Shown here: piece after piece, positions 16,451 to 61,067 of the stretch
Layout: each line of letters starts with the position of its first letter
How positions within the stretch are numbered: position 1 is the stretch's first letter
Assembly (NCBI GenBank): GCA_016841325.1
Contig: JAENZJ010000008.1
Coordinates: 1 to 64,000 of the forward strand
DNA: 64,000 bases
Direction of reading: 5' to 3'
DNA from: Thermincola carboxydiphila
GTDB lineage: Bacteria > Bacillota > Thermincolia > Thermincolales > UBA2595
Position numbers and translations under genes: made by a program
The notes under the pieces: model-generated
Seen by the model: only the letters and a program-made list of their open reading frames with translations
What the model was told of the DNA's origin: nothing
The model's database searches: none

Positions 16451-16468
16451 AATAAATACCCCCCTTTT

Positions 16469-17080
16469 TTATTGACTGATAATTACCCTTCTGCCTTCAA
16501 CCCGCAGCTTCCCTTCAGCAAAGAGCTGAATTGCCCGGGAATAGACCTTATGTTCTTCTTTAAGGATACGTGCCGCCAGGCTGTCTTCATCATCATCGGG
16601 CAGCACCGGGACAACCTCCTGCAGGATAATCGGCCCTGTATCCATCCCGCTGTCCACGAAGTGTACCGTACATCCCGAATACCTGACCCCATACTCAACC
16701 GCATCCCTTTGTCCGTGAGCCCCCGGGAAGGAGGGCAGGAGTGCAGGGTGGATGTTCATAATACGGTTAGGGTATGCATCCAGGAGAACCCTTCCCACCA
16801 AACGCATATACCCGGCCAGAACCACAAGTTCCGCCCGGTTTTCCCTGAGGCAGTCAACTGCTGCCTGTTCATATTCTTCTTTTCCCCGGTAATCCGCTGG
16901 TTTGATATGTACAGCCGGGATACCGTGGTTCCGGGCCCGTTCCAGGGCAAAGGCATCTGGTTTGTCACTTATAACTACAGCAACTTCAGCATTAAGTTTT
17001 CCGGCTTCGATGTTATCAATAATGGCCTGCAGGTTTGAACCACGCCCTGATGCCAGGACCCCCAGGCGTAATTTTGACAC
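16469..17080 (-). CDS. purN: Phosphoribosylglycinamide formyltransferase
   Basis: PurN moves a formyl group from 10-formyl-THF to GAR. It shows LGVLASGRGSNLQAI, the catalytic Asn-His pair in IMNIHPALLPSFPG and the Asp in SGMDTGPII. The frame is open further upstream, but I chose the GTG at 17080. It lies nine bases after AGGAGG and four bases after the purM stop, giving a 203-residue protein that starts in the usual place. Confidence 0.96.
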   Translation of the reverse strand: MSKLRLGVLASGRGSNLQAIIDNIEAGKLNAEVAVVISDKPDAFALERARNHGIPAVHIKPADYRGKEEYEQAAVDCLRENRAELVVLAGYMRLVGRVLLDAYPNRIMNIHPALLPSFPGAHGQRDAVEYGVRYSGCTVHFVDSGMDTGPIILQEVVPVLPDDDEDSLAARILKEEHKVYSRAIQLFAEGKLRVEGRRVIISQ

Positions 17081-19632: not shown

Positions 19633-20352
19633 TTACAGGGTTTCCCCGGTCAGTCTCCTGAGAACTTCCCGGTAGGCTTCCTCAACATTCCCCATGTCTC
19701 TGCGGAAACGGTCTTTATCCAGTTTTTCCCTGGTCTCCATATCCCAGAAACGGCAGGTATCGGGAGATATCTCATCAGCCAGGATAACCTCCCCTTTGTG
19801 GGTACCGAATTCAAGTTTAAAATCAATCAGGTCGATTTTCTTGTCCTTAAGGTAATCCCTGAGAATATCATTGATTTTAAGCGCCATTTCAGACATTGCC
19901 TTTATCTGACCCGGAGTTGCCAGGTCAAGTACCGCAATGTGATAGTCATTAATCAGCGGATCACCCAGGGCATCGTCCTTATAGTAAAATTCCAGCACCG
20001 TTTTAGGCAGCATGGTCCCTTCCGGCAGCCCGATCCTCTTGGATAACGACCCGGCTGCAATATTCCTGACCACAACCTCAACCATGATGATATCAACTGC
20101 TTTGACGATCTGCTCCCTGTCATTGACCTGGTTCACCAGGTGAGTGACAATCCCCTTATCTTCCAGCAGGTTAAAGAAGTGTATCGATATCCTGTTGTTA
20201 AGGATTCCTTTGTTCATGATGGTCCCTTTTTTCTTGCCATCAAAGGCTGTGGCATCATCCTTGTACTCTATCCAGTACAGGTCCGGGTCATTGGTCTTAT
20301 AAACCTTTTTGGCTTTGCCCTCGTGCAGCTGTTCCAGTTTTTGAATATCCAT
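19633..20352 (-). CDS. purC: SAICAR synthase
   Basis: PurC ligates aspartate to CAIR. The 239-residue protein shows [50 protein letters not shown] and [29 protein letters not shown] (partly quoted landmarks). It begins at ATG behind AAAGGAGGTAAGAG. It is separated from purB upstream by 329 bases containing a large palindromic element. Confidence 0.96.
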
Positions 20353-20416
20353 ATTCTCTTACCTCCTTTTACTCTTCAACAAGTTTCTTTTAACAATTTA
20401 CTTTTTAAACAAACTT

Positions 20417-20624
20417 CACTGCCGCCGTTATGAGTCTTGCTGTAAGCTCACCGGCATCAAGGCAGGGAGTCCCCGCATGTCCGAAGATGGCGAAGGCCGC
20501 CGGGAAGTTTTGGCTCGCCAAAACGAGAGGCGGCCATCATGTAAGACAGGCCCCATGAGCCATCGAGTTCGGGGACGCTGCCTTGATGCCGGGGGGTGGC
20601 AGCTTAGACTCATAGGCGGCAGTG
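20417..20624. repeat. 208-bp palindrome-rich structured element between purB and purC
   Basis: The ends pair as CACTGCCGCC/GGCGGCAGTG, followed inward by ATGAGTCT/AGACTCAT, a 15-bp pairing CCGGCATCAAGGCAG/CTGCCTTGATGCCGG and TCCCCG/CGGGGA. The centre holds GGCCGCC/GGCGGCC enclosing a perfect GTTTTGGC-TC-GCCAAAAC hairpin. No open frame fits and no transposase is present. It lies inside the transcribed pur operon. It may be a MITE-like insertion or a structured RNA that affects mRNA processing between purB and purC. Confidence 0.75.
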
Positions 20625-20681
20625 CGGAAAATCGTCACAATGCCTCACCACACTCTATTCCCGGTCATTTCCGGGAACCCA

Positions 20682-21974
20682 CTACAGTCCAAACCTCTGA
20701 AAAACCGTATCCACATGCCTGAGGAACCAATTATAGTCAAACAGGCTGCGGAGTTCTTCTGCAGGAATCAATTCGACCACATCAGCATCCTTCAGCAGCA
20801 GGTCGAGGAAGTCCTGCTTGGTCCGCCAGACCTCCATGGCATTTCTCTGGACCAGTTCATAGGCCGTTTCCCGCAAAACCCCTTTATCCACCAGTGCCAG
20901 CAGGACTCTCTGGGAATAAATAAGCCCTTTGGTCTTATTGAGATTTTCCATCATGGCATCCGGATAAACAAGGAGGTTGCTGACGATCTTTATGGTAAGG
21001 TGCAGCATGTAGTCAAGAAGGATGGTGCTGTCAGGGATAATTACCCGCTCCACTGATGAGTGTGAGATATCCCGTTCATGCCAGAGGGCCACATTTTCCA
21101 TGGCAGCAAGGGCATTACCCCGCAAAATACGCGCCAGGCCGCTGATGCGTTCACCGGTAATGGGGTTTCGTTTATGCGGCATTGCCGAGGACCCTTTCTG
21201 GCCCCTGGCGAAATACTCTTCAGCTTCCCTTATATCAGTACGCTGCAGGTTGCGCAGCTCAGTGGCAATCTTCTCCAGTGAACAGCCTATTACCGCCAGG
21301 GTTGACATATACTCGGCATGCCGGTCCCGCTGGATTACCTGTGTGGCAATCGCGGCCGGCTGCAGGCCCAGTTTCTCACACACCCTTCGTTCAACTTCAG
21401 GGTCAATGTTGGCATAAGTCCCTACAGCCCCGGACAGTTTACCCACACTAATGGTTTCCACTGCCCTTTTGAGTCGTTCAATATTGCGGTCGGTCTCAGC
21501 GATCCACAACAGCATCTTCATACCAAAGGTCATGGGTTCGGCATGTATTCCGTGTGTCCGCCCTATCATCGGTGTGTACTTGTACTCTGCGGCCTTTTCC
21601 ACCAGCTTTTCCCTCAGGGCTGCCAGTTTAGGGAGCAGGTGCTCTGCCGCCTCTTTCATCAGCAGGCACAGGGCCGTGTCACCTACATCTGATGAGGTCA
21701 TTCCCATATGGATATACTTGGACTCCTCACCGACATTTTCGGCCACATTAGTCAGGAATGCAATCACATCATGATTGGTGACCTTTTCAATTTCATCAAT
21801 CCGTTTTACATCAAAAGCGGCCTTTTCCCTGATGACCCTGACGGCTTCGGCAGGTATCTGCCCCAGCTCGGCCATGGCTTCACAGGCAGCAATTTCAACA
21901 TCAAGCCACTTCTGAAACTTGTTCTCCAGAGTCCATATTTTCCCCATTTCAGGCAGGGTATATCGTTCAATCAT
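20682..21974 (-). CDS. purB: Adenylosuccinate lyase
   Basis: PurB cleaves SAICAR to AICAR and adenylosuccinate to AMP. It belongs to the fumarase/aspartase superfamily. The signature [17 protein letters not shown] carries the mobile catalytic-loop Ser, and the [13 protein letters not shown] and [15 protein letters not shown] segments supply the catalytic His residues. It is 430 residues long and starts at ATG behind GGAGG (11-base spacing). Confidence 0.97.
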
Positions 21975-22661: not shown

Positions 22662-24035
22662 TCATTCTCCTCCCAGGAATGCATAGCGGAGAGCTATCAG
22701 TACAAAAAGTATGTACATCAGCCAGTGGACCTCCCTGGGCCTGCCGGTAGTTACCTTTAAAAAGACGTAAGTAACGATGCCTGCCGATATGCCATTGGCG
22801 ATATTGGCTGTAAAGGGCATGAAAACGATCGTGAGGAATGCCGGAATAGCATCAGCCATATTGTCAAAATCGATGTCCCTGATAGCAGAGACCATCAGCA
22901 GCCCTACCAGTATTAGGGCCGGTGCGGTAGCCGCACTGGGGATCAGGATGAAAAACGGTGCCAGGAGTATTGCCAGGAGAAACATGACTCCTGTGGTCAC
23001 TGCCGTAAGACCGCTTCTACCCCCTTCACTGATACCCGCGGCACTCTCGATATATGCGGTAACGGTACTTGTCCCCATCAGGGCCCCGAAACTGACGCCA
23101 AAGGCGTCCACCAGCATGGCCCGCCCGATTCTGGGATTATTGCCCCTTTCATCCAGCAGGCCCGCTTTTCCGGCAGTACCGATAAGTGTCCCAAAGGTAT
23201 CGAAGAGTTCCACAAAAGTAAATGTCAGGATAACTGTCAGGAGTCCCGCTCCCAGGGCGCCCATGATGTCCAATTTGCCTATGGCCAGATTTTGAAATGA
23301 AGGCAGGCTGTAACTAAAGCCCTTAATATCGGTGACCCCTAATGGGATCCCCGCCAGTGTGGTGATAATGATTCCCCAGAGCAGAGACCCTTTAACCCGT
23401 TTGGCCAGCAGGAGTCCTGAAAGCAGCAGTCCTATCACAGCCAGCAGGGCAGGTCCCTCTGAAATGATACCCAGTTTTGCTGCCCATTCACTGGGTGTAA
23501 TGACCCCCTTGCCGGACTCTGCAATACTCTCAAAACTGCCGCCAAACTCTCCGGGAAGCAGCTCGATAAATACCACCGCCAGCCCTGACAGTTTCAGACC
23601 GATAGAGGTAATGAACAGCCCAATACCTACTGTAATAGCCCTTTTCAGTGAGTTGGGCACAGCATCAACCAAAATCTGGCGTATATTGGTAACAGTCAGC
23701 ACAATAAAAATGATACCTGACAGGAACACAGCCCCCAGGGCCACCTGCCATGACATCTGCCCTGAGGCCACAACTGCCGCAAAGTAAGCGTTAAGGCCCA
23801 TTCCCGGGGCAAGGGCTATCGGAAAGTTCACAAAAAGCCCCATGGCAATCGTGACTACCCCTGCCGCCAGAGCGGTGGCAATAAATACTGCATTATAGTC
23901 CATCCCGGCGCCTGACAGGATAATCGGGTTAACTGCCAGGATATATGCCATTGTCATAAATGTGGTCAAACCTGCAATAACTTCAGTCTTGGTATCTGTC
24001 CCGAGCTCCCGGAACCTGAATAACCTCTCTAACAA
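22662..24035 (-). CDS. NCS2 family purine (xanthine/guanine/hypoxanthine-type) permease
   Basis: A 457-residue permease with about 13 membrane segments, of the AzgA/PbuG-like branch of the NCS2 nucleobase transporters. Landmarks are TTFMTMAYILAVNP near residue 30, NFPIALAPGMGLNAYFA near 70-90 and TFVELFDTFGTLIGTAGKAG in the second repeat. The start is TTG behind AAAGGGG. It is the first gene behind the ykkC-type riboswitch and heads the pur operon, so salvage uptake and de novo synthesis are co-regulated. Confidence 0.92.
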   Translation of the reverse strand: MLERLFRFRELGTDTKTEVIAGLTTFMTMAYILAVNPIILSGAGMDYNAVFIATALAAGVVTIAMGLFVNFPIALAPGMGLNAYFAAVVASGQMSWQVALGAVFLSGIIFIVLTVTNIRQILVDAVPNSLKRAITVGIGLFITSIGLKLSGLAVVFIELLPGEFGGSFESIAESGKGVITPSEWAAKLGIISEGPALLAVIGLLLSGLLLAKRVKGSLLWGIIITTLAGIPLGVTDIKGFSYSLPSFQNLAIGKLDIMGALGAGLLTVILTFTFVELFDTFGTLIGTAGKAGLLDERGNNPRIGRAMLVDAFGVSFGALMGTSTVTAYIESAAGISEGGRSGLTAVTTGVMFLLAILLAPFFILIPSAATAPALILVGLLMVSAIRDIDFDNMADAIPAFLTIVFMPFTANIANGISAGIVTYVFLKVTTGRPREVHWLMYILFVLIALRYAFLGGE

Positions 24036-24141: not shown

Positions 24142-24249
24142 AGTGAAACCTACCCGTCTGGGCTTTTATCCCGTCGGTGTGGCGCATACTGGCGCCTGTA
24201 CCACTTGGACCTGGCCTGATACTAAAATCAGCGGAACCCTAGGTACACT
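24142..24249 (-). ncRNA. ykkC-family riboswitch, probably the PRPP class
   Basis: The minus-strand leader holds the ykkC hallmarks: CTAGGGTTCCG, a hairpin, CCAGGTCCAAG, and the 3' block CGACGGGATAAAAGCCC. It is closed by a P1 helix, AGTGTACCTA pairing with TAGGTTTCACT. The 3' AAAGCCC can instead pair with GGGCTTT at about 24112-24119, followed by ATTATTTATT, giving a terminator that competes with the aptamer, as expected for an ON switch. Guanidine, ppGpp and PRPP classes share this core; the purine genes downstream favour PRPP. No guanine aptamer is visible in tandem. Confidence 0.82.
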
Positions 24250-24308
24250 TTCTCTCGTGTCCCCGGTAATGTCCCGGAACCTACGAAGATTCAGTTTGTT
24301 ACAGTTAT

Positions 24309-60895: not shown

Positions 60896-60921
60896 CAAAA
60901 ACACCCCTGGGAAAGGGGTGT
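60896..60921 (-). terminator. Intrinsic terminator in the Moco operon leader
   Basis: Minus-strand stem ACACCCCT/AGGGGTGT with loop TTCCC, followed by TTTTTGCGC, upstream of the first gene. Its location between the structured leader and the start codon marks it as the expression platform of attenuation. Confidence 0.85.
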
Positions 60922-61050
60922 CCTGATACCGCTAATCTCCTTTCCAAATACGGGAGGCATCACAGTTTCCTGGGATACCCTTTGCCGGTCACCCGGCAAC
61001 GGTTGACCGGCCGTACCCTAAAGGTCTTAGGCCATGTCAACTCGGAGTTT
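60922..61050 (-). ncRNA. Structured leader, probable molybdenum-cofactor riboswitch
   Basis: The minus-strand leader contains a CCTAA/TTAGG hairpin, a perfect GCCGGTCA/TGACCGGC stem, a CAAAGGGTATCCC segment and GAAACTGTGATGCCTCCCG, then the terminator. It heads a complete Moco operon, which is where Moco riboswitches occur. I matched the overall layout, not a computed covariance model, so the class is probable rather than proven. Confidence 0.62.
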
Positions 61051-61067
61051 ATTTACCTTGTTTTTAT

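Follow-up and report, generated by a model that had tools for sequence, protein, structure and literature searches.

A truncated copy of a dispersed palindromic repeat of the class around Thermincola lies between purB and purC of Thermincola carboxydiphila

By its behavior, the closest bacterial counterpart of the repeat described here is ERIC, which in Yersinia alters the stability of the upstream mRNA in an orientation-dependent manner (PMC2229807). Small non-autonomous elements such as Correia/NEMIS and RUP-type MITEs end in terminal repeats that carry TA at their termini, and they are flanked by target duplications (PMC2229807). In Volvox organelle DNA, palindromes located inside palindromes give larger layered repeats (PMC2670323).

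We analyzed a stretch of 64,000 nucleotides of Thermincola carboxydiphila (GenBank assembly GCA_016841325.1, contig JAENZJ010000008.1, positions 1 to 64,000 of the forward strand), designated here as the window, in which a sequence-only reading had pointed to a 208-bp nested palindrome between purB and purC. The spacer between these genes is 329 bp long (20353–20681), while neighboring pur genes lie approximately 20 to 65 bp apart or overlap, in agreement with the remark that neighboring genes of the operon are otherwise tightly spaced. Folding of positions 20417–20624 yielded a single long nested hairpin with −129.4 kcal/mol on the plus strand and −120.1 kcal/mol on the minus strand; the folding z-scores were −9.49 and −9.52 for the two strands, and none of 200 shuffled sequences folded as well. 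The reported nested pairings, the perfect 15-bp pairing (20451–20465 with 20578–20592), and the perfect central hairpin were all recovered along with several further layers. The palindrome is thus present where it was described, but the element itself is longer and extends to position 20681, where it directly adjoins the stop codon of purB, whereas position 20417 represents a truncation. The absence of an open reading frame was correct in substance only: an 81-codon frame exists at 20477–20722 (+), but it is not conserved and is interrupted by a stop (CGG TAA) in the copies of HGW-Firmicutes-8. In agreement with the view that no known riboswitch core is visible, no Rfam covariance model matched the palindrome at either of two thresholds, and no group II intron was found with the gathering cut-off or with E values of up to 5. 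No terminator-like site was detected within the window copy. Elsewhere in the window, a Moco (molybdenum cofactor) riboswitch (RF01055, 79.9 bits) was found at 60921–61059 (−) and a Guanidine-I riboswitch (RF00442, 63.4 bits with a cut-off of 63) at 24153–24253 (−), upstream of a permease-like gene at 22662–24035 (−). The features of the locus are listed in Table 1.

Table 1. Coordinates of the repeat copy and of its surroundings in the window.
Feature	Position	Strand	Basis or remark
Whole element as preserved	20417..20681	−	5′ end at 20681 by the purB stop codon; truncated at 20417, with loss of the 3′ outer arm and tail; alignment with full copies and with the purB-purC spacers of two congeners
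5′ outer arm (TGGGTTCCCGGAAATGACCGGG..GTGGTGAGGCATTGTGACGATTTTCCGCACTGCCGCC..)	20594..20681	−	Common to core-A and core-B copies
Conserved core A, 140 positions	20453..20592	−	Covariance model R1, 162.4 bits, E 3.2e-41, the window copy itself being among the 27 sequences used to build R1
Perfect central hairpin GTTTTGGCTCGCCAAAAC	20507..20524	.	Corresponds to helix 5 in the consensus structure
Inner part of the 3′ arm (GGTGAGCTTACAGCAAGACTCATAACGGCGGCAGTG)	20417..20452	−	Outer 3′ arm and tail missing
purB, upstream flanking gene	20682..21974	−	ORF translation
purC, downstream flanking gene	19633..20352	−	ORF translation; orthologues 90% identical in two congeners
purN-purH junction	16451..16476	−	Unoccupied in the window; copy in both congeners

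The purB-purC hairpin belongs, as a damaged copy, to a dispersed repeat that had not been named before. BLAST search with the segment gave 34 matches in its own genome (3.43 Mb), many of them partial; five besides the window copy covered most or all of its length with 90–91% identity. Copies and fragments are therefore spread throughout the genome, as anticipated for a MITE-like insertion. According to these copies, a full unit is formed by approximately 310 bp of nested inverted repeats, the outer arms of which open with GTTGGCTCYCGGAAATGACCG..ATGGTGAG..TTGTACCGATTTTCCGCACTGCCGCC and come back on the opposite side. Inverted ends are present, their exact limits vary, and many copies are extended on one side by an A-rich tail of 60–100 nt with a small hairpin (CCAAGG..CCTTGG). 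This tail was missing at unoccupied sites in several comparisons. Coding frames are not conserved among the copies. The possibility that only a chance inverted repeat is present is negligible, since it is refuted by the z-scores of about −9.5 and by the tens of copies, and nothing was found in its favor.

Ten genomes of the class were searched with the R1 model; 10, 23, 22, 24, and 31 core copies were detected in five of them and one in a sixth, with a few weak partial matches included in these counts. In genome G009, a copy lies no more than about 600 bp from the end of contigs C1, C8, C14, C17, C32, C34, and C40; the repeat thus seems to interrupt the assembly, and the counts for G009 are minimal. 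The five main carriers comprise three Thermincola and two representatives of other genera, one of which belongs to another family. No R1 copies were found with stricter filters in 388 other sampled genomes of the phylum, and none of the plasmids, phages, and viral contigs carried the repeat. Named records with the core pattern were those of Thermincola ferriacetica and HGW-Firmicutes-8 MAGs. The contig of one Desulfoscipio match was of Thermincola type and came from the same metagenome, being probably misbinned, and two Latescibacterota matches to the genome pattern appear to be chance hits in coding DNA. Within this sampling, the repeat is specific to the class around Thermincola. No description of it was found in the literature (open-licence full texts).

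Comparison of orthologous sites revealed that occupancy depends on the species. The place taken by the truncated window copy at purB-purC is occupied by a full copy in one congener and by a coreless copy in the other, so that the three congeners display three forms; two other genera have no copy there. The purB-purC spacer of HGW-Firmicutes-8 (L104, upstream of purC) contains a different repeat, CCGCGGATGACGCGGATAAACGCGGATT, together with a related copy in inverted orientation. Further unoccupied orthologous sites are L058 (empty in two species), L110, L192, L194, and L120. Among the 35 analyzed insertions of the two congeners G001 and G002, eight are at shared sites and 27 are without a counterpart among the analyzed copies of the other species, the former number being an undercount of sharing, as a coreless relative occupies the orthologous site of several of the 27. 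A possible 7-bp target duplication (GTGTCTG) at L194 and, at L120, GCATTACTA standing twice in tandem in the relative without the insertion are suggestive of target duplication and insufficient as proof. From the species-dependent occupancy, including the purN-purH junction, the hairpin family is very likely a mobile non-autonomous palindromic repeat. Of the three readings proposed from the sequence, the MITE-like insertion was well supported by the many copies, the unoccupied orthologous sites, and the presence of the purB-purC element in two congeners but not in two other genera; a protein-binding cruciform is a conjecture.

The insertions are located between genes; many start within about 10–25 bp of the upstream stop codon and others just after a terminator. 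Between co-directional genes, 26 copies lie along the genes and seven against them, where some of the copies are orthologous and long open frames were taken as genes. This placement and orientation could result from target choice or from selection against harmful sites, and the orientation bias could hint at transcription. Complementarity of the flanks beyond the ends exceeded the 95% control level in 14 of 35 copies, often with terminator T-runs pairing with the A-rich tail.

In the stems of the nested structure, changes are paired. Within the core, both partners have changed in 17 of 36 pairs, and the covariation score is 0.285 compared to 0.103 in shuffled and at most 0.073 in slid alignments. 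In the near-full element, aligned across three genera, such double changes affect 41 of 86 pairs compared to 24.9 in shuffles and 2–12 when slid; none of 500 shuffles reached either count, although many of the copies are related and represent only three or four lineages, so that the events counted are not independent. In contrast to the rewritten stems, loops such as AACTYGA and TCTKCRRACAT hardly vary. The inner loop of core A (window about 20535–20556) is a hypervariable stretch of ~20 nt within an otherwise almost invariant core; a guide-like role for it was rejected, as matches to insertion flanks were not above the control.

If a transcript is under selection, G-U should outnumber A-C among non-Watson-Crick variants on its strand. 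The counts of distinct G-U and A-C variants were 65:67 in Thermincola, 10:14 in HGW-Firmicutes-8, and 31:39 in a second family. Since these mismatches are equally common, there is no sign of selection on a transcribed strand; the covariation looked for among homologues was recovered as paired stem change without a G-U preference that would point to an RNA strand. On the gene-sense strand of the cross-genera alignment, A-C (29) exceeded G-U (15), and the opposite strand folded slightly better in 39 of 44 copies; this is a weak hint toward the other strand. The balanced mismatches and the opposite-strand results thus favor a DNA hairpin. The chances of such a mechanism appear to us about even, and the DNA-level claim is weak because neutral decay of copies after insertion also yields equal numbers of G-U and A-C.

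We regard the window copy as probably a truncated member of a dispersed family of mobile palindromic repeats that is non-autonomous and restricted to the class around Thermincola. The folded DNA hairpin, rather than a transcript, would be recognized by an enzyme supplied in trans, and its pairing may be renewed by the same mechanism or by arm-to-arm correction. The window copy would be a passenger that may alter the processing of pur mRNA. Two candidate partners were rejected: the ISL3 family, suggested by the look of the ends, was found in none of five genomes (PF01610, positive controls), and the Y1 transposase of REP/REPIN-RAYT systems (PF01797) was absent from carriers G000 and G004 and present in non-carriers. 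Descent as a classical MITE, i.e., a deletion derivative of a DDE-transposase insertion sequence whose parent was lost from these genomes, its terminal inverted repeats being the outermost GGCTCTCGGAAATGACC-like ends, would agree with the mobility, the conserved ends, and the suggestive duplications at L194 and L120. However, no autonomous or ORF-bearing version with these ends was seen in the sampled 1.64 Mb of the 3.43 Mb genome, and the absence of ISL3 also speaks against this origin. The ends are not uniform between copies, many of which carry the extra tail on one side only, and neither covariation across genera nor conserved internal loops is predicted for such a derivative. We consider this origin possible, though unlikely.

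An ERIC-like regulatory insertion is slightly less probable still. In that case, the hairpin in the purB-purC transcript would be cut or would block ribosomes or RNases and thus set the purB:purC ratio, and copies would be kept for such effects. The location inside an operon in the transcribed direction, the 26:7 orientation bias, the very stable fold, and the effect of the Yersinia ERIC on mRNA stability (PMC2229807) are in line with it. Against it are the copies at unrelated loci, the lack of a copy in this operon in other genera, the full, coreless, and truncated forms in three congeners, and the lack of a G-U excess over A-C on the transcribed strand. For the same reasons, namely the unrelated genes beside the copies and a mismatch test that favors no RNA strand, the earlier suggestion of a structured RNA whose purpose is to control purC found no support; purC regulation is unlikely to be why the element is there, and a side effect on the pur transcript is possible. 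More improbable is a structured RNA gene, either a ribozyme or a retroelement RNA, mobilized by reverse transcription. Deep covariation, conserved loops, and the preferred orientation of insertions located behind terminators or stop codons fit this explanation, and class C group II introns insert after terminators. Nevertheless, Rfam gave no match, none of the groups displayed a gene-sense G-U excess, and both sides of the pairs nearly always change together, with few G-U intermediates.

The mobile palindromic repeat loses and exchanges its center. At orthologous sites the arms are often kept while the center is gone, with the remains joined at the short homologies GGCAG, CAAGG, or AAG(G); in those cases such joins indicate deletion rather than an ancestral coreless state. 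At one site, core A is present in G001 and core B in G002, flanked by the same arms and tail. Evidence of core exchange came from L110 and L311, and several copies in the own genome carry core B within these arms. A third palindrome family has other arms around the core-B center and is near-identical at L238 (G000 C36:229358), L083 (C31:30631), and L084 (C11:54260). The core swap is most simply explained by recombination between shared arms. We tentatively suggest, as one of the less likely possibilities, a modular mobile element with separately exchangeable hairpin layers, in which the arms hold core A or B and the core-B center also sits inside unrelated arms. If this is true, a mechanism acting on folded DNA would insert or swap cores at palindrome centers.

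Instability would be expected of long palindromes in bacteria, yet the Thermincola lineage maintains tens in a genome, with their pairing renewed from genus to genus and their cores swapped. Where coreless and full forms occupy the same site, they document palindrome deletion as it occurred in nature, and with the three Thermincola genomes it can be measured in which direction and how fast insertion, excision, and core exchange proceed. Among the described systems, the nested repeats of Volvox and the double-hairpin elements of Allomyces share palindromes within palindromes, but these are organellar elements with short units in which, unlike in this repeat, a conserved structured core has not been reported. 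REP/REPIN with RAYT (Y1) are likewise extragenic palindromic repeats moved in trans; their units are 20–40 bp compared to 310 bp here, and two of our carrier genomes have no Y1 transposases. With bacterial MITEs in general the repeat shares dispersed copies without coding capacity and orthologous sites that are occupied or unoccupied, and with Correia/NEMIS, RUP, and other such elements also the small size, the non-autonomous mobility, the long stem-loop, and the insertion between genes, from which it differs in variable ends, a one-sided tail, and only suggestive duplications. To our knowledge, an exchangeable core has not been reported for ERIC (IRU). The repeat nevertheless resembles it as a palindromic sequence occurring in many copies in intergenic co-transcribed regions of several genera, and it is set apart by length and range, with 127 bp in another phylum for ERIC and about 310 bp plus the tail for the repeat of the class around Thermincola.
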